From contig NZ_JAHQZU010000009.1 of NCBI RefSeq assembly GCF_019061185.1, positions 62,001 through 126,000 on the forward strand: DNA of 64,000 bases, read 5' to 3'. Below are positions 51,931 to 64,000 of the stretch, piece after piece. Numbering within the stretch: the stretch's first letter is position 1; the number at the start of each line of letters is the position of its first letter. The notes beneath the pieces were generated by a model. It did no database searches, was not told where the DNA came from, and saw only the letters and a list, made by a program, of their open reading frames with translations. Made by a program: the position numbers and the translations under genes. The stretch comes from Paracoccus sp. Z118 (GTDB lineage: Bacteria; Pseudomonadota; Alphaproteobacteria; Rhodobacterales; Rhodobacteraceae).

Positions 51931-53274
51931 TCAGTTCGCCGCCGGGGTCGCCGGGTCCACGGCTTCCGCCGCATCCGCGCCCGAGGGGGCGGTCGTGCCC
52001 TGATCCTGCAGGCTCACCGGCTGCGGCCGCGGGGTGTCGATGTTGCGGACCGGCAGGATCGGATGGACGATCTGCGGCTGCTCGCCGGTCAGTGTGCCGA
52101 GGAACGCGGTGATGTCCTCGGCCTCGGCGTCGGCCAGTTCCGTGCCGAGCTGCGAGGTGGACATGATCCGCACCGCCTCCTCCAGATCCCAGACCTTGCC
52201 CGAGTGGAAATAGGGCGCCGTCAGGGCGACGTTGCGCAGCGGCGAGGCGCGGAAGACATACTGGTCGTCCTCGGTCTCGGTCACGGTAAAGCGGCCCGTG
52301 TCGCCTTCGGGGCGCACCTCGTCATCGGGCGCCTCGACCAGACCGAAGGGATAATACCCCTCGCCGCCGAAGTTCACGCCGGCATGGCAGGCCGAGCAGC
52401 CGTTATCTAGGAACGCCTGCAACCCGCGTTTCTCCTGTTCGTCCATCGCGCCGTCCGCGCCGAGCAGCCACTGGTCGAAGCGCGAGTTCGGGGTGATGAG
52501 CGTCGCCTCGAACACCTCGACGGCATGAGCGAAGCTGTCGAAGGTGATCGGGTCCTCGACGCCGGGGAAAGCGGCGTCGAAGGCGCTGACATAGCCCGGC
52601 ATGGATTTCAGCGTCTGGATCAGGTTCTCGGGGGTGTTGTTCATTTCCACCCCGGCCTGCACCGGCCCCTTGGCCTGTTCGGCCAGATCCTCGGCCCGCC
52701 CGTCCCAGAACTGGGCTATGTTGAAAATCGCGTTCAGCATGGTCGGCGAGTTGCGCGGCCCCTGCTGCCAGCCATGGCCGATCGAGGCTTCAAGCTGGTC
52801 GGTCCCGCCCAGGCCGAGATTGTGGCACGAATGGCACGAAAACACGCCCGACAGCGACATGCGCGGATCGAAGAACAGCATCGCGCCGAGGTCGATCTTC
52901 TCGCGCGTCATCGGCGCGCCGCTGGGCAGTTCGGCCATGCGCGGGATCGGCTCGAAGAACGATGCCGCGTAGTCGCGCAACTCGGCGTCGGCGGACCCCT
53001 CGCCGGCCATTTCGGGCGCCCGCGTCATGGCCGCGCCCTGTGGCGAGACCCGCGTTTCCGCCGCGACATCCGCCGCGCTGCGACCTGCGGGGGCCTGCGT
53101 TCCGTCCGCCATCGCGGCGTCGGCGGGATCGGGCGCGCCCGCGACTTCGGGGGTGTCGATCGCCTGCGCCTCGGCGGCCTGTTCTGCCTGCGCGGCTGCC
53201 GGGTCGGACTGGCCGAGGGCCGGCGTAGCGACGAGCAGGGCGGATGTCAGGAGAAGAAGGCTTCTGGCTTGCAT
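51931..53274 (-). CDS. ccpA: Dihaem cytochrome c peroxidase
   Basis: A 447-aa periplasmic enzyme that reduces hydrogen peroxide with electrons from cytochrome c or pseudoazurin. A signal peptide (about residues 1-22, LLLLTSALLVATPALG) is followed by about 85 acidic, Ala-rich residues. The two c-type haem sites are CHSCH (Cys147, Cys150, His151) and CSACH (Cys293, Cys296, His297). The spacing of 146 residues matches the CcpA/MauG fold. The N-terminal acidic stretch and the extended C terminus make it longer than typical CcpA of about 340 aa. ATG 53274 is used; an FNR-type box lies 57 bases upstream. Confidence 0.92.
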   Translation of the reverse strand: MQARSLLLLTSALLVATPALGQSDPAAAQAEQAAEAQAIDTPEVAGAPDPADAAMADGTQAPAGRSAADVAAETRVSPQGAAMTRAPEMAGEGSADAELRDYAASFFEPIPRMAELPSGAPMTREKIDLGAMLFFDPRMSLSGVFSCHSCHNLGLGGTDQLEASIGHGWQQGPRNSPTMLNAIFNIAQFWDGRAEDLAEQAKGPVQAGVEMNNTPENLIQTLKSMPGYVSAFDAAFPGVEDPITFDSFAHAVEVFEATLITPNSRFDQWLLGADGAMDEQEKRGLQAFLDNGCSACHAGVNFGGEGYYPFGLVEAPDDEVRPEGDTGRFTVTETEDDQYVFRASPLRNVALTAPYFHSGKVWDLEEAVRIMSTSQLGTELADAEAEDITAFLGTLTGEQPQIVHPILPVRNIDTPRPQPVSLQDQGTTAPSGADAAEAVDPATPAAN

Positions 53275-53331
53275 GGCGATGCTCCGTTTCTTTGGTTTGG
53301 TGCAGGCTGCACAAACTGGGGCGGCCGCGCT

Positions 53332-53345
53332 TTGACACAGATCAG
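53332..53345 (-). promoter_or_regulatory. FNR/FnrP-type box upstream of ccpA
   Basis: On the minus strand CTGAT-CTGT-GTCAA differs from TTGAY-N4-RTCAA only at the first base. Its centre lies about 64 bases before the ccpA ATG, where a -41.5 activator position would leave a leader of about 23 bases. FnrP is known to control ccpA in P. denitrificans. Confidence 0.6.
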
Positions 53346-53461
53346 ATCGCGTCACGGGCGAACCTGACGCGCCAACATGTCTCTCTGACGACAGGTTCCC
53401 CGCGAAAGGCCGCTTCCCCGGCCCGTGGTGGAGGGCGCCCGGCCGTCAGCCCGCCGGATCG

Positions 53462-54217
53462 TCAGCTCTGACTTCTCAGCCGCACCGCCTCCCGCAGATG
53501 CCCCGGCAGGATCGCCGCGCCCTTCACATAGCGCGGCCCCAGCCGGCGCGGGCTGGAGAGCGCGCGCCACAGCCATTCCATCTTCGCCCCCCGCACCGCC
53601 GCCGGCGCGCGCCGTTGCAGGCCGGCGACGAAGTCCAGCCCCGCCCCGACCGAGGCAAAGCCCACCTCGGGCAGTTGGCGGGCGGCGAAGGCGGCAAAAC
53701 GCTCCTGCCGGGGGGCGCCGACGCCCAGCAGGCACAGCCGCGCACCGCTGCCCCGGATGGCGTGGGCGAGATCCGCCGCCTCGGCCCCCTCGGGGTCGAA
53801 GGGGAAGCCGGGCGCGGTGCGCAGAACGACCTTCAGCCCCGGCGCGACCCGCTGAAGATGCGCGGCGGCGCCGTCGGCAGCCGCGGCGCTGCCGGCGATC
53901 AGCGCGACGGGCGCCCCGGCGCGGGCGGCGGCCTGCGCCAGCGGCTCGACCAGTTCCGAGCCGGGGACCAGCGCCACCGGCCGCCGCGCCACGCGCGACA
54001 GCCACACGATCGGGTTGCCATCGGCCACCACCAGATCATGGGCGGCGTAGGCTGCGCGGAACCCCGCGTCGCGGCGCAGCTTTTCCAGATGATCGACGTT
54101 CAGCGTGGCCAGGGTGAAGCCGCGCCCGCCATCCAGCCGCCGCCGCACCTCGGCCAGCAGCGCGGCGCGGTCGCGGCAGGTGATCGCGATGGTGGTGTCG
54201 CCGAAGCTGAATTCCAT
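53462..54217 (-). CDS. WecG/TagA/CpsF-family (GT26) glycosyltransferase
   Basis: A 251-aa GT26 enzyme that adds a ManNAc-type or related sugar to a lipid-linked acceptor. Typical pieces are present: TLNVDHLEKLRRD near residue 39, the ADGNPIVWLSR acceptor region with catalytic Asp near residue 65, and LLGVGAPRQERFAA near residue 163. The C terminus is basic and probably peripheral to the membrane. ATG 54217 is chosen (GGGAAGG before it). It is divergent from the PKS gene, and the shared 206-base gap should hold both promoters, which suggests joint control. Confidence 0.85.
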   Translation of the reverse strand: MEFSFGDTTIAITCRDRAALLAEVRRRLDGGRGFTLATLNVDHLEKLRRDAGFRAAYAAHDLVVADGNPIVWLSRVARRPVALVPGSELVEPLAQAAARAGAPVALIAGSAAAADGAAAHLQRVAPGLKVVLRTAPGFPFDPEGAEAADLAHAIRGSGARLCLLGVGAPRQERFAAFAARQLPEVGFASVGAGLDFVAGLQRRAPAAVRGAKMEWLWRALSSPRRLGPRYVKGAAILPGHLREAVRLRSQS

Positions 54218-54423
54218 TCGCCTTCCCCGCGTGTCTGCCGCCCGCCGCCCGCCGCATCGAATCGCCATGCGGGGGCGGGAGCGGCCTTTCCTTTACGCTT
54301 GTTTCCCGAAAAACCGGTTAACTCGATAGTTGTCTAAATGTAGGCCTTGGCGGGTGTGCCCCGACGAGGCTACGGTAAGCGCGTAGGCTGATTTCCGCCT
54401 ATCATTTTTACCTGGTATGTTGC
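54218..54423. other. Divergent promoter region, GT26 / PKS
   Basis: This 206-base gap is lower in GC than either gene, mainly near the PKS side. It contains overlapping palindromes AACCGGTT (54312-54319) and GTTAAC (54317-54322). No clear -35/-10 pair was found. No open frame of interest. Confidence 0.4.
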
Positions 54424-57400
54424 GTGACCTCTGTTGATTCTCTCTCCGATCACCCTGAACTCCACAACTCCGTAGGGGATATCTGCATCGTCGGGATGGC
54501 GTTGCAGGTGCCGGGTGCGCTCAACCCTGCGGATTTCTGGGACAACCTGCGCGGCGGGGTCGAATCGATCTCCCGCCCGTCGCCCGAGCAGTTGCGCGAG
54601 CGCGGCGAATCGGCGGCGCGGATGGCCGACCCGCGCTATGTCCCCGCCGCCGCCATGCTGGAAGGCTTCGACGGTTTCGACGCCGAGTTCTTCGGGCTCA
54701 GCCCCAAGGACGCCGCGATCATGGACCCGCAGCACCGCAAGTTCCTGGAGTGCTGCTGGCAGGCGATCGAGGATGCGGGCCACACGCCGGAAAGCCTTGG
54801 CGCGACCGGCGTCTTCGGCGGCTGCGGGATGGGCAGCTATTTCTATTTCAACGTGATGTCGAACCGCGATCTGGTGGACGGGACCGGCGCGTTCCTGCTG
54901 CGCCATACCGGCAACGACAAGGATTTCCTGTCCACCCGCGTCAGCCATGTCTTCGACCTGCGCGGACCGTCGGTCAACGTGCAGACGGCGTGTTCGACCT
55001 CGCTGGTGGCGGTGCATCAGGCCTGCCAGTCGCTGCTGAACGGCGAATGCGACGCGGCGCTGGCCGGGGGCGTCACCATCGAGCTGCCGCACGGGCGCGG
55101 CTATGTCTATCATCCGAACGAGATCCTGTCCCCCGACGGCCATTGCCACGCCTTCGACCACCGCGCGCAGGGCACTGTCTTCGGCAGCGGCGCGGCGGTC
55201 GTGCTGCTGCGGCGGCTGGAGGATGCGGTGCGCGACCGCGACCATATCTGGGCGGTCATCAAGGGCACGGCGGTCAACAACGACGGGGCCGACAAGGCCG
55301 GCTATCTCGCCCCCAGCGTCGGCGGGCAGGCGCAGGCCATCGTCGAGGCGCATCACGCGGCAGGGATCGGCGGCGACGGCATCGACTATGTCGAATGCCA
55401 CGGCACCGGCACGGCCTTGGGCGATCCGATCGAGGTCGCGGCGCTGACCGACGCCTTCGCCCGCACCGCGCGGGGCGAGGCTCAGGCGCGGATCGGCTCG
55501 GTCAAGACCAATATCGGCCATCTGGACACGGCGGCGGGGGGCGTCAGCCTCATCAAGGTCGCGCTGTCGCTGCATCACGGGGAAATGCCGCCGAGCCTCG
55601 GCTACGAGGCGCCGAATCCCGTCATCGACTTCGAGAACTCGCCCTTCGCGGTCAACGACCGCCTGACGCCGTTTCCCGCCCGCAGCAGGCCACGGCGGGC
55701 CGGGGTGAACTCGCTGGGGGTGGGCGGCACCAACGCCCATGCGGTGATCGAGGCCGCGCCGCCTGCGCCTGAAAGCGGGGACTCCGATTGGCCGTTCCAG
55801 CTGCTGGTCCTGTCGGGCCGCAGCCGCGCGGCGCTGGATGGGAACGGCGGCGCGCTCGCCGCATGGCTGCGCGCCAACCCGGACGCGAACCTTGCCGACG
55901 TCGCATGGACGCTGAAGGAAGGCCGCCGCCATTTCGACAAGCGCCGGGTGCTGGTCGCCCGCGACGCGGCCGAGGCGGCGGAACTGCTGGAATCCGCGGA
56001 CAGCCGCCGCGTCCTCAACCACGACGCCGTGCCGGGGGGGCCTTCGGTCGCCTTTCTCTTCCCCGGCGGCGGGGCGCAATATGCCGGCATGGCCCGCGAT
56101 CTATACGCCACCGAGCCCGAGTTCCGCGACTGGATGGACAAGGGGCTGGAGATTCTGGCCGGGCTGACCGGCGACGATCCCCGCGAGCTGTGGCTGCCCG
56201 AGCCGGGCGAGGAGGCCGCGGCCGATGCCGCCCTGACCAGGCCGTCCGCCCAGTTGCCGCTGCTGTTCATCACCGAATACGCGCTGGCACGGCTGTTCAT
56301 GTCATGGGGCGTCCAGCCTTCGGCCCTTGGCGGGCATTCGATGGGGGAAAACACCGCCGCCTGTCTCGCGGGCGTGTTCTCGTTCGAGGATGCGATCCGG
56401 CTGGTGCTGCTGCGCGGGCAGCTGTTCGACCGGGTGCCGGCGGGCGGCATGCTCAGCGTCTCGCTGCCCGCCGCCGAGGCGATGGCCGAGGCGGGCGATG
56501 GGCTGGACCTTGCCGCGATCAACGGGCCGTCGCTCAGCGTCGTGTCGGGGCCCAAGGACCGGCTGGACGCGCTGCAAGCCTCGCTCACGGGGCGCGGGAT
56601 CGAGTGCCAGCGCATCGCCATCGACATCGCCGCCCATTCCCGGATGCTGGAGCCCATTCTGGACGAATGGCGCGGATTCCTGCGGTCGATCCGGCTTTCG
56701 CCGCCGTCGATCCCGGTCGTTTCGAACCGCACGGGGACGTGGCTGACGGCCGAGCAGGCGACGGACCCGGAATACTGGCTCGCCCATCTGCGCGGCACCG
56801 TCGATTTCGCCGCCTGCGCCGCCACGCTGAAGGACGATCCGACGCGCGTGATCGTGGAAATGGGACCGGGCCGCGCGATGAGCGCGCTGTCACAGGCCAA
56901 CGGCATCGCCGCGAACCGGGTCGTCAGCGCCCTGCGCCACCGCGACCATGCGATTGCCGACGACGAATGGTTCGTGACCGCGCTCGGGCGGCTCTGGGCC
57001 ACCGGCGTTCCGGTGGACTGGGCACCGCTGTGGGGCGAGGCGGCGCGGAACCGCCTGCCGCTGCCGACCTACGCCTTCCAGCAGCGCTGCTATTTCATCG
57101 AGCCTGCCGCCCCGCGCGTCGAGGATGTTGCCGAGCCGCCGATGCGGCGCGAGGATCTGGCCGACTGGGGCTGGCGTCCCGCCTGGCGGCAGAGCGCCCC
57201 GGACGTGGAGATCGGCCCGGATGGCCGCCCGGTCGCGCCGCAGCGCGCAAGCTGGCTGGTGTTCTTGGATGACAGCGGCCTTGGCGATGCGGTCGTGGCC
57301 CGGCTGCGGGCGCTGGATCAGGACGTGATCGAGGTCGTCGCGGGCGACGGCTACGCCGAACTGGGCGCGGATCGCTTCCAGATCTCGCCCGAGCTTGGGC

Positions 57401-60400
57401 GGCGCGACGTGGACATGCTGGTCGCCGCGCTGATGCTGCAGAACCGCCTGCCGGACAGGGTCGCGCATCTGTGGCTGGCCGATCCGCAGCGCGTGGCGCG
57501 GGCCGGGTCGAGCCTGTTCCACCGGCACTTGGAGCAGGGATTCTACAGCTTGCTCTATCTGCTGCAGGCGCTGGCGGATGCGGGGGCCGAGCAGGCGATG
57601 CGGCTCGTCACCGTCACCACCGGCGCGCTGGGGGTGGCTGACGAGGCGGTGCCGTTCCCGGAGAACGCCCTCGCGCTCGGCCCAGTCGGGGTCGGGCCGC
57701 GCGAGATGGAATGGCTGTCGGCGCGTCTGGTGGATGTCGAACTGCCCGCGGGGCTGCGGACGGGAATCGAGGATCGCGCCGACCGGCTGGTCGAGGATCT
57801 GCTGGCCGGTGAAGGCCCGCGCGTCGCCGCCTGGCGCGGCGGCCGCCGCTTCGCCCGCTCGTGGGTTCCCGCGCCGCTGGAGGGTGGCGCGGCGGGCGAC
57901 GTGCCCGAGGGCGCGGTGGTGCTGATCACCGGCGGTCTTGGCGGGATCGGTCTGACTCTCGGGGCGGACCTTGCCCGCCGCCGGGGCGCGAGGCTGGCGC
58001 TGCTCGCCCGCTCGCCCCTGCCGCCGGAAGCGGAGTGGGAGGGGCTGATCGCCGCTGCGCCTGCCTCGGCCCGCTCCGCCCGGCTGAAGGCGGTGAAGGC
58101 GCTGCGCGAGGCGGGGGCCGAGGTCGTGACGGTTGCGGGCGACGTTGCCGACCGCGAATCGCTCGCCGCCGCCGTCGCCGAGGTCGAGCGCCGCCTTGGC
58201 CCGGTGCAAGTGCTGCTGCACGCCGCCGGGCAGGTCGACGACGGGCCGCTGCTGACCAAGACCGAACGCAGCGTCGAGGAGGTGTTCGCCGCCAAGCTGC
58301 ACGGCACCCGCGCGCTGCTGGACGTCTTTGCCGCTCGGCCGCTGGGGCTGACGGTGCTGTTCTCCTCGACCAGCGCGGCGATCGCGCCGGCGGGGCAGGT
58401 CGATTACGTCGCCGCGAATGAATACCTGAACGCCGTCGCCGCCGCGCAGCCGGCCGCTTTCGGCCGGACCGTCGCGGTGGACTGGGGCATCTGGGCCGAT
58501 ACCGGCATGGCGGCCGCCGCGCTTGCCGGATCGGGCGAGGGCGCGCGCAGCGAGGTCGCGGGCGCGCCGCTGCTGCGCAGCCGCTGCGAGGCGGCGGGCG
58601 CGGCCAGCTTCGACGGCGCGCTGTCCACCGATGACTGGGTGATCGACGAACACCGCCTGCGTGGCGGCGGGGCGCTGCTGCCGGGGACCGGTGTGCTGGA
58701 AATCGCCGCGCAAGCCGTCGCGGCGGGTGGCGGGCGGATGCCCTATGCGCTGGAGGATGTGACCTTCCTCAGCCCCTTCTCGGTCGCGGGCGGGCAATCG
58801 CGGGGGCTGCGGGCCACGCTGACGCCGGAGGCCGGGGGGCGGCGCTTCGACATCCTCGCCGCGACGGGCGAGGACGGGGTGCGGCTGCGGACCGCCACGG
58901 GCCGGATCACCGGCGCGGATGCGGGGGCGCAAGCGCGGCTCGATCCGGCGGCGCTGGCCGCGCGGATGCCGCGCGAGGTCGCCGACCGGGGCCACCCGAT
59001 CCGCTCCGCTCAGGAAGAGGTGCTGGACTTCGGCCCCCGCTGGCGGGTCCTGCGCAGCTATCGCTTCGGCGATGGCGAGGGGCTGGCCCGGCTGGTGCTG
59101 CCCGATGCCGCGCGCGGCGATCTGGACGACGGATGGCTGCTGCATCCGGCGCTGATGGACATCGCCACCGGCTGGGCGATGGAACTGATCGACGGCTGGT
59201 CTCCGCAGACCGTCTGGGTGCCGGTCTCCTATGGCCGCGTGACCGTGCGCGCGCCGCTGCCGGCCGAGGTCGTCAGCTGGGTCCGCAACGCCGACCGTAA
59301 CCGCGCCGATGACGGCTTTGCCCGCTTCGACATCACCATCGCCGCCCCGGATGGCGAGGTGCTGGTCGAGGCCGAGGGGCTGACCCTGCGCCGCCTGGAG
59401 CATGGCTTTGAGGCGGCAGGCGCGGGCCAGCTTGTCCGCGACCCCGCGCTGGAGGCGGAAAGCGATCCGGGGCGGCGGCGTCTTGCCCGCGCGCTGTCGC
59501 AGGGCATCCCGCGCGCGCAGGGCCCCGAGGCGCTGCGCCGGGCGCTGGCTTCCGGGCGGCTGGTCGTCGGCGTCTCCAGCATGGATCTGGGCGCGCTGAT
59601 CGCCGAAGCGGACGCGGCGGCGAGTGCCCGCACGGCGGAAGGCGCGGCGTTCGAGCGGCCCGATCTCGACACGGAGATGGTCGAGCCGAGGAACGATCTG
59701 GAACGCGCCATCGCCGGTTACTGGCGCGAGCTTCTGGGTGTGCAGGCGGTTGGGGTCGAGGACAGCTTCTTCGACCTCGGCGGCCATTCGCTGCTGGCGG
59801 TGCGGCTGTTCGCCATGATCCGCCGCAACTATGGCGCCGACCTGCCGATCTCGACTCTGTTCGAGGCGCCGACCATCGCCAGGCTCGCGGAACGGATCGT
59901 CGCGGAAACGGGCATCGACCCGGCGGCGGGCGGGAACGAGGCGCCCTCCGGCCCGCGCCTGGTTTCGGCCGCGCCAACCTCGCGCTTCACCCATCTGGTG
60001 CCGATGAACGCGGGGCCGCCCGGCGGCGGGCTGCCGTTCTTCATCGTCGCGGGGATGTTCGGGAACGTCCTGAACCTGCGCTCGCTGGCGCAGCGCCTCT
60101 CGGCGGATCGCCCGGTCTACGGCCTTCAGGCGCGCGGGCTTTATGGCCAGGACGCACCGCATGACAGTTTCGCCGAGGCCGCCGCCAGCTGCATCGCCGA
60201 GATGCGGCAGGTGCAGCCGCAGGGACCGTGGCTGGTCGGTGGCTTTTCCGGCGGCGGGCTGACCGCGCTGGAGATCGCGCTGCAACTGGAGGCGGCGGGC
60301 GAGCAGGTGGGGCAACTCGTCCTGCTGGACACGCCGCTGCCCATGCGCCCGGCGCTCGGCCGCCGCGACCGGCTGCTGATCCGCCTGGGCGAGATGCGCG

Positions 60401-60831
60401 AACAGAAGGGTGCCTTCGTCGGCGAATACCTGCGCAAGCGCCGCGAATGGCAGCGCGAGCTGCGGCGGCGGGCGAACGCCCCGTCGCAGGTCGGCAACCA
60501 GAGCTTCCACAACGACGCGATCCATGCGGCCTTCCTCGCCTCGCTGCCGGGGTTCGATCTGCGGCAATGGGACGGGCCGGTGACGCTGTATCGCCCGCGG
60601 CTCGACCGGCGCTGGAAGGTGTCGGGCGGGCAATGGGTCAGCACGGCGCGGGAATATGTGTTCGAGGACAACCAGTGGTCGCCGTGGCTGCCGCAGTTGC
60701 AGGTGTCGGAAGTGCCGGGAGATCACGACTCGATGGTGCTGGAGCCGTCGGTCCGCATCCTCGCCGCGCGGATCGCGCAGCAGCTTGCGGCGGTGGATGC
60801 GGATGCCGAGCCGCTGAGGGGGGCCGCCTGA
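54424..60831 (+). CDS. Type I polyketide synthase, KS-AT-KR-DH-ACP-TE
   Basis: A 2135-aa single-module PKS. The ketosynthase (about 15-440) has its triad: Cys190 (TACSTS), His326 (ECHGTGT) and His366 (NIGHLD). The acyltransferase (about 540-830) has Ser639 (GHSMGE) and His738 in IAAHSRM, not the usual malonyl or methylmalonyl motif. A KR structural region and a ketoreductase follow (TGGLGGIG near 1168, Tyr1328). The dehydratase comes after it (His1410, Asp1579), reversed from the usual order. ACP Ser1789 (GGHSLLA) and thioesterase Ser1942 (GFSGGG) with His2101 end it. The GTG has no good ribosome site. A released beta-hydroxy or enoyl product is likely. Confidence 0.9.
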   Translation: MTSVDSLSDHPELHNSVGDICIVGMALQVPGALNPADFWDNLRGGVESISRPSPEQLRERGESAARMADPRYVPAAAMLEGFDGFDAEFFGLSPKDAAIMDPQHRKFLECCWQAIEDAGHTPESLGATGVFGGCGMGSYFYFNVMSNRDLVDGTGAFLLRHTGNDKDFLSTRVSHVFDLRGPSVNVQTACSTSLVAVHQACQSLLNGECDAALAGGVTIELPHGRGYVYHPNEILSPDGHCHAFDHRAQGTVFGSGAAVVLLRRLEDAVRDRDHIWAVIKGTAVNNDGADKAGYLAPSVGGQAQAIVEAHHAAGIGGDGIDYVECHGTGTALGDPIEVAALTDAFARTARGEAQARIGSVKTNIGHLDTAAGGVSLIKVALSLHHGEMPPSLGYEAPNPVIDFENSPFAVNDRLTPFPARSRPRRAGVNSLGVGGTNAHAVIEAAPPAPESGDSDWPFQLLVLSGRSRAALDGNGGALAAWLRANPDANLADVAWTLKEGRRHFDKRRVLVARDAAEAAELLESADSRRVLNHDAVPGGPSVAFLFPGGGAQYAGMARDLYATEPEFRDWMDKGLEILAGLTGDDPRELWLPEPGEEAAADAALTRPSAQLPLLFITEYALARLFMSWGVQPSALGGHSMGENTAACLAGVFSFEDAIRLVLLRGQLFDRVPAGGMLSVSLPAAEAMAEAGDGLDLAAINGPSLSVVSGPKDRLDALQASLTGRGIECQRIAIDIAAHSRMLEPILDEWRGFLRSIRLSPPSIPVVSNRTGTWLTAEQATDPEYWLAHLRGTVDFAACAATLKDDPTRVIVEMGPGRAMSALSQANGIAANRVVSALRHRDHAIADDEWFVTALGRLWATGVPVDWAPLWGEAARNRLPLPTYAFQQRCYFIEPAAPRVEDVAEPPMRREDLADWGWRPAWRQSAPDVEIGPDGRPVAPQRASWLVFLDDSGLGDAVVARLRALDQDVIEVVAGDGYAELGADRFQISPELGRRDVDMLVAALMLQNRLPDRVAHLWLADPQRVARAGSSLFHRHLEQGFYSLLYLLQALADAGAEQAMRLVTVTTGALGVADEAVPFPENALALGPVGVGPREMEWLSARLVDVELPAGLRTGIEDRADRLVEDLLAGEGPRVAAWRGGRRFARSWVPAPLEGGAAGDVPEGAVVLITGGLGGIGLTLGADLARRRGARLALLARSPLPPEAEWEGLIAAAPASARSARLKAVKALREAGAEVVTVAGDVADRESLAAAVAEVERRLGPVQVLLHAAGQVDDGPLLTKTERSVEEVFAAKLHGTRALLDVFAARPLGLTVLFSSTSAAIAPAGQVDYVAANEYLNAVAAAQPAAFGRTVAVDWGIWADTGMAAAALAGSGEGARSEVAGAPLLRSRCEAAGAASFDGALSTDDWVIDEHRLRGGGALLPGTGVLEIAAQAVAAGGGRMPYALEDVTFLSPFSVAGGQSRGLRATLTPEAGGRRFDILAATGEDGVRLRTATGRITGADAGAQARLDPAALAARMPREVADRGHPIRSAQEEVLDFGPRWRVLRSYRFGDGEGLARLVLPDAARGDLDDGWLLHPALMDIATGWAMELIDGWSPQTVWVPVSYGRVTVRAPLPAEVVSWVRNADRNRADDGFARFDITIAAPDGEVLVEAEGLTLRRLEHGFEAAGAGQLVRDPALEAESDPGRRRLARALSQGIPRAQGPEALRRALASGRLVVGVSSMDLGALIAEADAAASARTAEGAAFERPDLDTEMVEPRNDLERAIAGYWRELLGVQAVGVEDSFFDLGGHSLLAVRLFAMIRRNYGADLPISTLFEAPTIARLAERIVAETGIDPAAGGNEAPSGPRLVSAAPTSRFTHLVPMNAGPPGGGLPFFIVAGMFGNVLNLRSLAQRLSADRPVYGLQARGLYGQDAPHDSFAEAAASCIAEMRQVQPQGPWLVGGFSGGGLTALEIALQLEAAGEQVGQLVLLDTPLPMRPALGRRDRLLIRLGEMREQKGAFVGEYLRKRREWQRELRRRANAPSQVGNQSFHNDAIHAAFLASLPGFDLRQWDGPVTLYRPRLDRRWKVSGGQWVSTAREYVFEDNQWSPWLPQLQVSEVPGDHDSMVLEPSVRILAARIAQQLAAVDADAEPLRGAA

Positions 60832-60832
60832 G

Positions 60833-61774
60833 ATGGCCGGAACGGTTCACACCATCATCCTGAACTGGCGCACGGCCGACATGACGATGCGCTCGCTGGA
60901 CCACGCCCTTGCCGCGATGGCGGGCGTGGACGGCATGATAACCGTCGTGGACAACGACTCGGGCGACGGCAGTTTCGAGCGGTTGAGCGAATACGCGGCG
61001 CCGCTGGACCGCGTGAAGGTCGCCCAGTCGGGCCGCAATGGCGGCTTCGGCGCGGGCAACAACTTCGCCATGTTCGACGCGCTGCCGGACGGGCGGGTGC
61101 CGGATTACGTCTATCTGCTCAACTCCGACGCCTTCCCCGAGCCGGATGCGATCAGACTGCTGCGCGATCATCTCGACACCAACGCCAAGGTCGGGCTGGC
61201 AGGCAGCCGGATCGTCGGCACCGACGGGGTGCTGCACGAAACCGCGTTCCGCTTTCCATCGGTCGCAAGCGAGTTCGAGGGGGCGAGCAAGACCGGGCCG
61301 GTCAGCAAGCTGTTGCGGCGCTGGATCGTCGCGGGCCCGACGCCGGATGTCGCGGGGCCGGTGGACTGGACCTGCGGCGCCAGCCTGATGATGCGCCGCG
61401 CGATGCTGGACCGGATCGGCGGCTTCGACGAGACGTTCTTTCTGTATTTCGAGGAAACGGACCTCTGCCGCCGCGCCGCGAAAGCGGGCTGGCCCACCCA
61501 TTACGTCCCGGCAAGCGTGGTGGCGCATGTCGCCTCGGGCAGCACCGGCCTCAAGGACATGGCCCGGCCGCCCGATTACTGGTTCGACTCGCGCCAGCAT
61601 TACCTCCGCAAGAGCCTTGGCCCGGTCTGGGCCACCGCCGCCAATCTCGCCCATATCGCGGGCGCGGCGCTGTTCCGTCTGCGCTGCCGGATCGAGCGGC
61701 GGCAGGACGGCCCCGCAACCGGCCACATGCGTGCCATCGCCCGGCACGGCTTCGCCCGCCCCCGCAAGAGGTAG
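60833..61774 (+). CDS. Family 2 glycosyltransferase in the PKS/NRPS cluster
   Basis: A 313-aa GT2 enzyme similar to rhamnosyl-type transferases. It has HTIILNWRTAD, the nucleotide-binding VDNDSGDGS near residue 39, NGGFGAGNN, the DxD-equivalent NSDAFPEP near residue 97 and the acceptor/catalytic region GGFDETFFLYFEETDLCRR near residue 200. It starts two bases after the PKS stop and ends seven bases before the NRPS start, so it is very likely part of their transcript. It may glycosylate the polyketide/peptide product; the sugar is unknown. Confidence 0.85.
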   Translation: MAGTVHTIILNWRTADMTMRSLDHALAAMAGVDGMITVVDNDSGDGSFERLSEYAAPLDRVKVAQSGRNGGFGAGNNFAMFDALPDGRVPDYVYLLNSDAFPEPDAIRLLRDHLDTNAKVGLAGSRIVGTDGVLHETAFRFPSVASEFEGASKTGPVSKLLRRWIVAGPTPDVAGPVDWTCGASLMMRRAMLDRIGGFDETFFLYFEETDLCRRAAKAGWPTHYVPASVVAHVASGSTGLKDMARPPDYWFDSRQHYLRKSLGPVWATAANLAHIAGAALFRLRCRIERRQDGPATGHMRAIARHGFARPRKR

Positions 61775-61781
61775 CCTTCCC

Positions 61782-64000
61782 ATGTCCCTCGACCTGCTGT
61801 TGATCGGCAACGAATCCCTGACCCGCGAATGCGGCGCGCTGGCGCTCGCCCGCGGCCACCGCATCGCCGCCGTCGTGACCCGACATCCCGGCACCGCCGC
61901 CTGGGCGCGCGAGGCGGGGATACCCCTCCACGCCCCTTCCGCGCTGCGGAATGGCGGGCTGTCCGGGGCGGCGGTGGACTGGGTGCTCAGCATCGCCAAC
62001 CTGAATGTGGTGCCGGATGCGGTGCTGGCGCTGGCCCGCAAGGGCGCGGTGAACTTCCACGATGGCCCGCTGCCGCGCTATGCAGGGCTGAACGCCCCCG
62101 CCTGGGCGCGGATGGCGGGCGAGACCACGCACGGCATCAGCTGGCACCGGATCGAGGGGGGCATCGACGAGGGCCGGGTGCTGGCGCGGCGCGACTTCGC
62201 CATCGACCCCGAGGACACCGCCCTGACCCTGAACGCCAAGGCGTGGGAGGCGGGGCTGGACAGTTTCGGTGAACTGCTGGAGCTGCTGGAAGCGGGCGCG
62301 CCGGGCACCGCGCAGGATCTGTCGCAGCGAACCCTGTTCGAGCGGGCAAAGCGCCCGCAGGCGGCGGGACGGCTGGACTTCACCCGTCCGGCGGATGAGC
62401 TGATCGCGCTGGTGCGCGGGCTGGATCACGGCCTTTATGCCAACCCGCTGCTGACGTCCAAGATCGCGCTGGACGGGCGCGTCATGGCCGTCGGGGCGAT
62501 CGAGGCGGCGGAGGGGCAGGGCGCCCCCGGCACGATCCTCGCCCGCGACGGCGACGGGGTGATCGTCGCCTGCGGGGGCGGCGCGGTCCGGCTGGATGCG
62601 CTGTCGCCCGCGGACGGGCGCGAGGGCGCGCCGTCGCTCTCGCCCGGCCGGCACCTGCCGCCGCTGACGGAAGACGAGGCGCAGGCGCTCAATGCTGCTG
62701 TAGCGGAGGCCGCGCCGCGCGAGGGGTTCTGGCGCCAGCGCCTGATCGCCATGACCCCTGCGGTGCTGGAACTACTGCCTTCCGATGGCCCGGCCCACGC
62801 GCAGGAAACCCATGTGGCGCTGCCCCGGCCGGTGTCGCCCGACGCGGCGGTGGCGCTGTTCGCCGCCGCTTTGGGCCGCGCCGCCGATCTTCAGGCGCAT
62901 GACCTCGCCTTGGCGGTCCCGGTTCCGGCGGAGGCTGCGGGCTATGTGGCCGACTGGGTGCCGCTGCACGCCGATCTGGAGGATGCCGGGCTGACGCTGG
63001 ACGGCCTGTCCGCGCAGATCGCGGCGGCGCGGGCTGATCTGGACGGGGCGGGATGGCTCGCCGACCTGCCGCTGCGGGCGCCGGAGCTTGCGGGGATGCA
63101 GCGCCCGCTCGCGTCCGTCGCAAGTCACGACGCGGCCGAGGGACCGCGCGGGCTGACGCTGCGCCTGCCCGAGGGCGCCACGGACCGGCTGACGCTGGCC
63201 TTCGACGCGGCTCGCCTGCCGGCGCGCACGGTCGCCGGGATCGCCCGGCTGATGGCGCGGCTGTCGGCGGCGCCCTCGGATGCGCCGCTGCGGGCCGCCG
63301 AGCTTGTGACCGACGAGGACCGCGCCCGCATCCTCGGCCCGTGGAACGACACGGCGCGGCCATTCGACGACATCACCATGCACGCGGCCTTCGCGGCGCA
63401 GGCGGCGAAGACGCCGGACGCGACGGCCCTGATCTTCGAGGATCGGCGGCTCAGCTACGCCGAACTCGACGCCCGCGCCAACCGGATCGCCCATGCGCTG
63501 ATGGCGCTGGGCGTCGGGCCGGATCGGCCGGTGGGCCTTTTTGCGCAGCGCGGGCCGGACATGGTCGCCGGGGCGCTCGGCATCCTCAAGGCGGGAGGGG
63601 CCTATGTGCCGCTGGACCCGGCCTATCCGGCGGACCGGATCGCGCATTACATCTCGGATTCCGGGGCGGCGGTGATCCTGTCCGATGCGGCGCTGGCGGA
63701 TGCGCTTCCCGCCCAAGCCGGGCGGGTGCTGACGTTGGACGATCCGTCGATCGCGGCACAGCCCGCAACCGCCCCGCAGGACTGGGCGAGCGGCGAGGAT
63801 CTCGCCTATCTCATCTACACCTCCGGCTCTACCGGGACCCCCAAGGGGGTGATGATCGAACACCGCAACGTCGCCAACTTCTTCGCGGGCATGGACGAGC
63901 GCATCCCCCATGCCCAAGGCGATGTCTGGCTGGCGGTCACAAGCCTGTCCTTCGACATCTCGGTGCTGGAAATCTTCTGGACCCTCTCGCGCGGCCTGAC
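61782..64000 (+). CDS. NRPS with N-terminal formyltransferase and truncated condensation domain, 3' end outside window
   Basis: The frame is open from ATG 61782 to the window end, at least 739 codons. Residues about 1-180 form a formyltransferase fold with the catalytic Asn91, His93 (NFHDGPLPRYAG) and Asp129 (GGIDEG), followed by an Fmt-type C-terminal domain (about 200-300). Residues about 316-515 begin FWRQRL and resemble only the C-terminal half of a condensation domain; the HHxxxDG motif is missing. An adenylation domain follows (from about 520; SYAELDARAN, YLIYTSGSTGTPKGV near 675). Formylation of an amino-acid or hydroxylated starter before loading is the likely role. Carrier and later domains are not visible. 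Confidence 0.87.
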   Translation, partial: MSLDLLLIGNESLTRECGALALARGHRIAAVVTRHPGTAAWAREAGIPLHAPSALRNGGLSGAAVDWVLSIANLNVVPDAVLALARKGAVNFHDGPLPRYAGLNAPAWARMAGETTHGISWHRIEGGIDEGRVLARRDFAIDPEDTALTLNAKAWEAGLDSFGELLELLEAGAPGTAQDLSQRTLFERAKRPQAAGRLDFTRPADELIALVRGLDHGLYANPLLTSKIALDGRVMAVGAIEAAEGQGAPGTILARDGDGVIVACGGGAVRLDALSPADGREGAPSLSPGRHLPPLTEDEAQALNAAVAEAAPREGFWRQRLIAMTPAVLELLPSDGPAHAQETHVALPRPVSPDAAVALFAAALGRAADLQAHDLALAVPVPAEAAGYVADWVPLHADLEDAGLTLDGLSAQIAAARADLDGAGWLADLPLRAPELAGMQRPLASVASHDAAEGPRGLTLRLPEGATDRLTLAFDAARLPARTVAGIARLMARLSAAPSDAPLRAAELVTDEDRARILGPWNDTARPFDDITMHAAFAAQAAKTPDATALIFEDRRLSYAELDARANRIAHALMALGVGPDRPVGLFAQRGPDMVAGALGILKAGGAYVPLDPAYPADRIAHYISDSGAAVILSDAALADALPAQAGRVLTLDDPSIAAQPATAPQDWASGEDLAYLIYTSGSTGTPKGVMIEHRNVANFFAGMDERIPHAQGDVWLAVTSLSFDISVLEIFWTLSRGL

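Follow-up and report, generated by a model that had tools for sequence, protein, structure and literature searches.

What would a non-ribosomal peptide synthetase (NRPS) do with a formyltransferase (FT) at its start and only half of a condensation domain behind it, and is such a protein real? This question is raised by a gene at the right-hand end of a 64,000-nucleotide stretch of DNA from Paracoccus sp. Z118 (G000:C161:62001-126000), called the window here. The original prediction, made from the sequence alone, described an FT fused to a condensation-domain remnant, and this fusion was confirmed. As had been stated, the gene runs past the window; the contig extends beyond the window end, and the sequence to the right of base 64000 could be read. 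The reading frame from 61782 is uninterrupted to base 64000 and reaches its stop at window-equivalent position 66425 on the same contig (C161), giving a product of 1547 amino acids.

Domain content and the condensation lobe

The protein consists, in order, of the FT, the C-terminal lobe of a condensation domain (C-lobe), a glycine-type adenylation domain with a luciferase-like flavin monooxygenase (LLM) inside it, a carrier and a basic tail. Pfam and NCBIfam placed Formyl_trans_N at residues 62-156, Formyl_trans_C at 194-280, AMP-binding at 537-745 (the adenylation domain predicted to follow the lobe), TIGR04020 at 763-1113, AMP-binding_C at 1314-1387 and the carrier at 1433-1497, with the adenylation domain resuming at approximately residue 1105. 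A flavin monooxygenase had been suggested to complete the protein downstream; the enzyme is present, but it is inserted within the adenylation domain. The features of the gene are as follows.

61782..62645, + strand: FT domain, residues 1-288, of the Fmt/ArnA type, with an N-terminal catalytic part and a C-terminal subdomain (Pfam, fold match, catalytic residues)
62052-62054, + strand: Asn91 of the FT
62058-62060, + strand: His93 of the FT
62166-62168, + strand: Asp129 of the FT
62646..63365, + strand: condensation C-terminal lobe, residues 289-528, without the N-terminal lobe (N-lobe) and HHxxxDG (hhalign, profile matches, AlphaFold2 (AF2) model and fold searches, alignment, motif scan)
63366..63998, + strand: first part of the adenylation domain as far as the window reaches, residues 529-739 (Pfam/NCBIfam)
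Continuation beyond the window (read on L006:3782-8425), ending at window-equivalent 66425: LLM insert (763-1113), the rest of the adenylation domain as far as 1387, a carrier at 1433-1497 and a basic tail that ends at 1547

Conservation was assessed in 80 rows, comprising the window and 79 of 80 named-genome loci (L043, cut by a contig end, was left out); these loci are the best 80 of at least 567 stretches encoding some relative of a 535-residue query. The catalytic Asn91, His93 and Asp129, claimed to form an intact set, were unchanged in 80/80 rows. The nearest solved sequences to the FT were methionyl-tRNA formyltransferases and ArnA (E 3.4e-22 to about 3e-17), with the formylation domain of LgrA far lower among the matches (best E 1.5e-5). 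A model of residues 1-535, built from 28 sequences, had a mean confidence (pLDDT) of 91.5 and a predicted template modelling score (pTM) of 0.87, and aligned with ArnA and Fmt at Z 28-30 over approximately residues 1-293 (VIA-align). The pTM of this model hints at a defined interface between the FT and the lobe.

The lobe was too diverged for Pfam, and so profile-profile and fold comparisons were used. No Pfam family was matched over approximately residues 281-530 of the window protein. Among 57 relatives, Condensation was found in just two, and weakly (best E 0.046), which is no better than chance-like single matches such as that to RHH_5 in one member (E 8.5e-4). A profile of these 57 relatives matched the C-terminal ends of solved condensation domains, namely McyB (2.7e-8), Txo2 (5.7e-6) and Txo1 (2.1e-5), and more weakly TycB (0.0022) and PvdL (0.005), although these matches involve its final 60 or so positions only. 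In an hhalign comparison, eight complete condensation domains taken from the study loci served as the reference profile; the match had 97.4% probability and E 9e-12, with columns 19-235 falling on 194-464, in its second half. The claim that about 200 residues represent the C-terminal half of a condensation domain was thus borne out.

When the 1-535 model was compared with known folds, the 50 matches listed were all FT folds; because these filled the list, the lobe was folded separately. Residues 290-528 alone were predicted by AF2 to form a compact, confident fold (pLDDT 92.5, pTM 0.89); on the proposed check of whether the remnant folds as a single lobe, the prediction is that it does. This model aligned with the second half of condensation domains, with Z 16.5 on EntF 175-441 (216 residues aligned, root-mean-square deviation 3.3), Z 15.4 on SrfA-C 181-459 and Z 14.9 on LgrA 942-1218 (VIA-align). 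The best 50 Foldseek matches were, by title, condensation, cyclisation, epimerisation or X domains or NRPS chains, except for CmnI, HtmB2-CT and SgcC5, whose titles are uninformative. In the multiple alignment, the columns of the N-lobe contain no residues of the protein, and the lobe sets in close to 'YWR', a segment between the two lobes. The condensation active site is absent, as had been noted: HHxxxD[GA] occurred in 0/80 rows (first 560 residues scanned), and 61782-64000 encodes no HHxxxDG in any of its three forward frames. The segment therefore has the fold of a condensation C-lobe and lacks both the HHxxxDG site and the lobe that would precede it. A C7-motif match spotted by eye in the lobe was dropped, since the alignment does not bear it out.

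The lobe was present in 80/80 rows, with a length of 197-244 residues (median 234). It was the least conserved of the named domains, with only the short linker ahead of the carrier lower still. In 600 sampled pairs, its mean identity was 0.33, compared with 0.53 for the FT, 0.64 and 0.63 for the adenylation domain, 0.76 for the LLM and 0.61 for the carrier. The median ratio of non-synonymous to synonymous substitution rates (dN/dS) was 0.23 for the lobe, against 0.14 for the FT, 0.11 and 0.10 for the adenylation domain, 0.06 for the LLM and 0.09 for the carrier, in 19 hand-picked close pairs (NG86; the dS values are rough at this high G+C content). The lobe also has internal deletions relative to complete condensation domains. 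Such low identity, the highest dN/dS and the deletions might be expected of a decaying relic without function. This explanation is very unlikely, as the lobe is kept in all 80 rows and in all five FT-type relatives outside the family (see below), its dN/dS is well below 1, and its predicted fold is compact and confident. A lobe that is constrained, but less so than the catalytic parts, suits a structural piece.

Five lobe residues were invariant in 57 rows (W103, P105, D139, R143 and P153, in the numbering of alignment A3). In an alignment with two complete condensation domains, W103 and P105 fall within the stretch opposite GxFxNTxPxR, and R143 stands opposite an Arg that both of these domains have. 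Together with purifying selection, this invariance despite the drift of the lobe would fit a working surface for carrier docking or gating, with the remaining half of the old acceptor site steering the carrier among the adenylation domain, the LLM and the FT. We regard such a role as unlikely: the N-lobe half of that acceptor site has been lost, and the invariant residues may be structural only.

Occurrence and origin of the fusion

Relatives at E <=1e-100 were found in 31/101 genomes of the relatives search, all within the genus of the window. Among 30 loci retrieved from this search, 29 were full length or almost so, and the copies of G001 and G030 were cut or broken. A comparison of the architecture across Rhodobacteraceae had been proposed, and the FT with its lobe was detected in 106/295 family genomes sampled, representing 105/294 genera (E <=1e-60, a few of the matches being partial). 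Three genomes had two matches each to the FT-lobe alignment; both are almost complete in G567 and in G573, while the second is partial in G685. The best 80 loci belong by title to Rhodobacteraceae in the older, wide sense, save for one metagenome-assembled genome (MAG) titled Curvibacter; the taxonomy used for the LLM tree described below splits its family rows into Paracoccaceae and Roseobacteraceae. In the Curvibacter MAG (L052), which may be mis-binned, the gene for the GT2 family glycosyltransferase lies upstream of the polyketide synthase (PKS) gene rather than between the PKS and NRPS genes.

This distribution also bears on whether a frameshift, an assembly join or contamination created the fusion. 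Nothing in the window points that way, though the broken-looking G030 and G001 copies show that single assemblies can be defective. As one open frame recurs in many genomes, a sequencing error joining two genes is unlikely, and an artefact of any of these kinds is extremely improbable.

Matches to TIGR04020 were mostly ordinary LLMs, and exceeded the cut-off in 11/385 genomes of a class search and 19/398 of a phylum search. Fourteen of the genomes above the cut-off lie outside the family, and the neighbourhoods of 13 were examined (G844 was left out). An FT, lobe, LLM-interrupted adenylation domain (A(LLM)) and carrier were found in 5/13 (L148, L149, L169, L170 and L172). L169 had been a candidate for a lobe-less protein; this was rejected when the lobe was matched at E 3.2e-15 in a one-sequence search with the HMMER filters off. 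A complete condensation domain precedes the A(LLM) in 2/13 (L168, E 1.1e-67; L173, E 2.2e-99), of which L173 retains HHIAADG and L168 has no HHxxxDG. Neither an FT-lobe nor a complete condensation domain was found in 6/13 (L128, L150, L151, L152, L171 and L174), L128 being at a contig end. In L168 (L168:6006-11618), a condensation-A(LLM)-carrier protein, a methyltransferase is also inserted late in the same adenylation domain, which is thus doubly interrupted.

Because L168 and L173 carry a complete condensation domain before the interrupted adenylation domain, the simplest history would be that the FT replaced the N-lobe of a condensation-A(LLM) module, as the original prediction had suggested. 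A small tree was built from the LLM domain, with 27 rows to which the window and its family contribute 17. All 22 FT-type rows fall on the same side of one branch, whose support of 94/94 is slightly below the tool's mark for a firm branch. With two rows of the type bearing a complete condensation domain, this tree is compatible with a single origin of the chimera, rather than showing one.

The predicted starter module and its partner genes

The specificity positions of the adenylation domain, mapped by eye, spell DILQMGMIWK in the window; 79/80 rows conform to DILQ[M/L/F/Y]GMIWK, and in one the last letter is gapped. This is close to the reference glycine code, DILQLGLIWK. Seven relatives outside the family have the same specificity letters, except for Val in place of Ile at the eighth letter in L149 and L173. 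The domain would therefore be expected to load glycine. The embedded LLM belongs to TIGR04020 (NCBIfam, the MupA/Atu3671 family), with 461.4 bits against a cut-off of 244.45. It sits between code positions 725-729 and 1194-1203, where FDIS (725) and YGPTE (about 1195) are the A4-type and A5-type segments, respectively. The protein thus shows both marks of an LLM-interrupted glycine domain, a monooxygenase between A4 and A5 and a glycine-type code. The phosphopantetheine-bearing Ser1460 of the carrier was present in 79/80 rows, with a gap in one. The basic C-terminal tail (residues 1503-1547, L006:8288-8422; approximately DAMARRRxMRARR) has its pattern in 68/80 rows and might serve in docking to the PKS.

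Three genes upstream of the NRPS gene are of interest.

60833..61774, + strand: GT2 family glycosyltransferase, between the PKS and NRPS genes (Pfam; match in 79/80 loci)
54424..60831, + strand: type I PKS with ketosynthase (KS), acyltransferase (AT), ketoreductase (KR), dehydratase (DH), acyl carrier protein (ACP) and thioesterase (TE) domains in that order, presumed partner of the NRPS (Pfam; match in 80/80 loci)
53462..54268, - strand: WecG/TagA-type glycosyltransferase, in polysaccharide surroundings (Pfam, E 9.9e-41)

The pairing with the PKS is conserved, some of the 80 matched PKS genes being cut by contig ends; L107 has no GT2 gene in the available DNA of its locus. Twelve catalytic positions of the PKS were checked in 73 rows, and 11 were kept in 73/73. 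In all five FT-lobe loci outside the family, a PKS with KS, AT, KR, DH and ACP lies beside the NRPS, in NRPS-then-PKS order in L148, L149 and L169 and as divergent genes in L170 and L172. The KR precedes the DH in the window PKS (Pfam KR at 1164-1359, DH parts at 1382-1660), and likewise in L148, L149, L169, L170 and L172; this order is unusual for a PKS.

The system is probably a starter module that supplies formylglycine, probably oxidised at the alpha carbon, to the neighbouring one-module PKS, with the C-lobe as a predicted non-catalytic adaptor. The adenylation domain would load glycine on the carrier, the FT would formylate the glycyl thioester using formyl-tetrahydrofolate, and the LLM would oxidise the alpha carbon of the carrier-bound substrate. 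The starter would then pass from the carrier to the KS, and the PKS would add one unit, reduce and dehydrate it, and release the product through its TE. The C-lobe is the condensation half that packs on the adenylation core in condensation-adenylation structures; it is therefore likely to act as an adaptor, which would hold the FT on the old condensation-adenylation platform where the N-lobe was. The formylglycine starter is proposed on account of the FT residues, the glycine-type code, the LLM at the site known from myxothiazol and melithiazol modules, and the PKS pairing. The domain content, the kept catalytic residues, the missing condensation active site and the conserved pairing were observed directly, whereas glycine as the substrate, the order of formylation and oxidation, the hand-over to the PKS and the role of the lobe are inferred. 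In L169 (L169:1-6747) a condensation domain follows within the PKS chain, and the PKS stretch available shows no TE. The starter of L169 seems to feed a longer line, as would be expected if a formylated starter enters one.

Several observations weigh against this proposal. The gene order in the window (PKS, GT2, NRPS) runs counter to the proposed order of action, the PKS and NRPS genes are divergent in L170 and L172, and the basic tail is the sole hint of docking. The one varying position of the twelve checked in the PKS, the KR serine, is kept in 50 of the 73 rows and replaced by Ala in 23, and the glycine code was placed by eye. In L149 (L149:6499-11007), one of the FT-lobe-A(LLM) relatives outside the family, the catalytic His of the FT is replaced by Phe; formylation may have been lost there, and so would not be essential everywhere. 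The lobe could have a role other than that of an adaptor, such as carrier docking.

The fate of the oxidised intermediate might also differ. The terminal modules of myxothiazol and melithiazol are encoded by MtaG and MelG. In these systems a flavin monooxygenase between a4 and a5 is described as hydroxylating the glycyl residue, which leads to cleavage and a glyoxyl thioester (PMC10204066, PMC11342130). By analogy, the formylglycyl-carrier might be hydroxylated and the carbinolamide collapse with loss of formamide, so that the PKS would start from a glyoxylyl thioester; the purpose of formylation would then be to create a leaving group. The shared insertion point and the glycine-type code speak for this cleavage, but it would not be automatic, because solanimycin is described as retaining alpha-hydroxyglycine (PMC10204066), and we consider it rather unlikely.

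The wider setting of the locus concerns the destination of the product. Downstream clusters were counted in 77 loci having at least 3.5 kb past the NRPS, with Pfam run on one representative each of the phosphopantetheinyl transferase, Wzz-like and CbiA/ParA-type clusters. A phosphopantetheinyl transferase was found in 44/77 loci, at a median offset of zero from the NRPS stop (for example in L117), and a Wzz-like chain-length protein in 30/77. A cluster without an assigned family occurred in 28/77, a sugar transferase, as judged by eye, in 19/77 and a CbiA/ParA-type ATPase, capsule-kinase-like by eye, in 16/77. Right after the NRPS, where others have the phosphopantetheinyl transferase, a group-1 glycosyltransferase lies on the opposite strand in the window genome. 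With WecG/TagA, the group-1 glycosyltransferase, a sugar transferase and the GT2 gene around the window locus, the setting looks like an exopolysaccharide locus, and the product may join a polysaccharide polymer. A gene for a CCP_MauG di-haem cytochrome c peroxidase adjoins the locus (51931-53355, minus strand).

A more speculative version, which we hold to be decidedly improbable, is that the formyl group is installed as a throwaway. The FT and LLM would make a glyoxylyl (or N-formyl-hydroxyglycyl) starter, the PKS would extend it, and the GT2 and exopolysaccharide genes would attach it to a sugar polymer, the FT/C-lobe chimera being the device that turns an elongating condensation-A(LLM) module into a starter. 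If this were true, exopolysaccharide across the family would widely bear a non-carbohydrate decoration that has gone unrecognised.

Relation to known systems

The predicted formylglycine starter module can be compared with LgrA of linear gramicidin, which initiates with formylation, adenylation and carrier domains. Both have an N-terminal FT, an adenylation domain and a carrier in one chain, and a starter role. LgrA is not known to have a condensation lobe between the first two domains, or an LLM. The FT studied here is closer to Fmt/ArnA than to that of LgrA, and has an Fmt-type C-terminal subdomain. The window protein has the Asn-His-Asp set of the FT, and the adenylation domain and carrier serine in the same chain, as in LgrA-type formylating modules, but the FT is not joined directly to the adenylation domain. 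Because the condensation C-lobe separates the two, the module is a variant of the LgrA type. The domain order of LgrA, and the swinging of its carrier between the adenylation domain, the formylation domain and the next condensation domain, are described in PMC8150014.

The myxothiazol and melithiazol modules likewise have their monooxygenase inserted in a glycine adenylation domain, at the a4-a5 position. As likened by description, those modules act on a peptide and end the chain, whereas here the FT occupies the place of the N-lobe and the module would be a starter. MupA, of the TIGR04020 family, is described as alpha-hydroxylating an ACP-bound substrate in vitro (PMC10953402); it works in trans in a polyketide pathway, while the LLM studied here is embedded. 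CongA of conglobatin is presented, in a model by analogy with oxazolomycin, as a formylglycine loading module for a PKS (PMC4504003), and the same paper cites the requirement of prior formylation for extension in linear gramicidin. The CongA/OzmO systems are thus alike in having an FT and a glycine adenylation starter that feeds a PKS; the description consulted in PMC4504003 mentions neither an LLM nor a condensation lobe.

The PKS/NRPS gene pair itself is probably a known orphan NRPS-like/T1PKS cluster, as judged by description and not by sequence. In P. inhibens T5, the PKS Inhi_1972 and the NRPS Inhi_1974 are one gene apart by number (PMC4062626), hybrid NRPS-like/T1PKS clusters were reported in 18/37 species (PMC10584327), and orphan clusters of this kind in the family also appear in PMC11225332. 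The accounts consulted in PMC4062626 and PMC10584327 do not describe the FT, the LLM or the lobe. The present analysis proposes a defined enzymology for a PKS/NRPS pair found in about one third of the sampled genera of the family (105/294). From the combination of FT, glycine code, LLM and a single PKS module, the product would be expected to be very small.

Starters that formylate, glycine domains interrupted by an LLM, condensation folds without catalysis and orphan NRPS-like/T1PKS clusters are each known already. No description of an FT fused to a condensation half was found among the titles and abstract openings listed in searches of a literature collection that is thin on subscription papers, so that this absence is a weak one. 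What would be new compared with these systems is an FT fused to exactly one condensation lobe and widely kept in one family. It represents a natural, widespread swap of one condensation lobe for another enzyme, in which the lobe beside the adenylation domain is retained, and it offers a fusion point proved by evolution that is directly useful for building starter modules.

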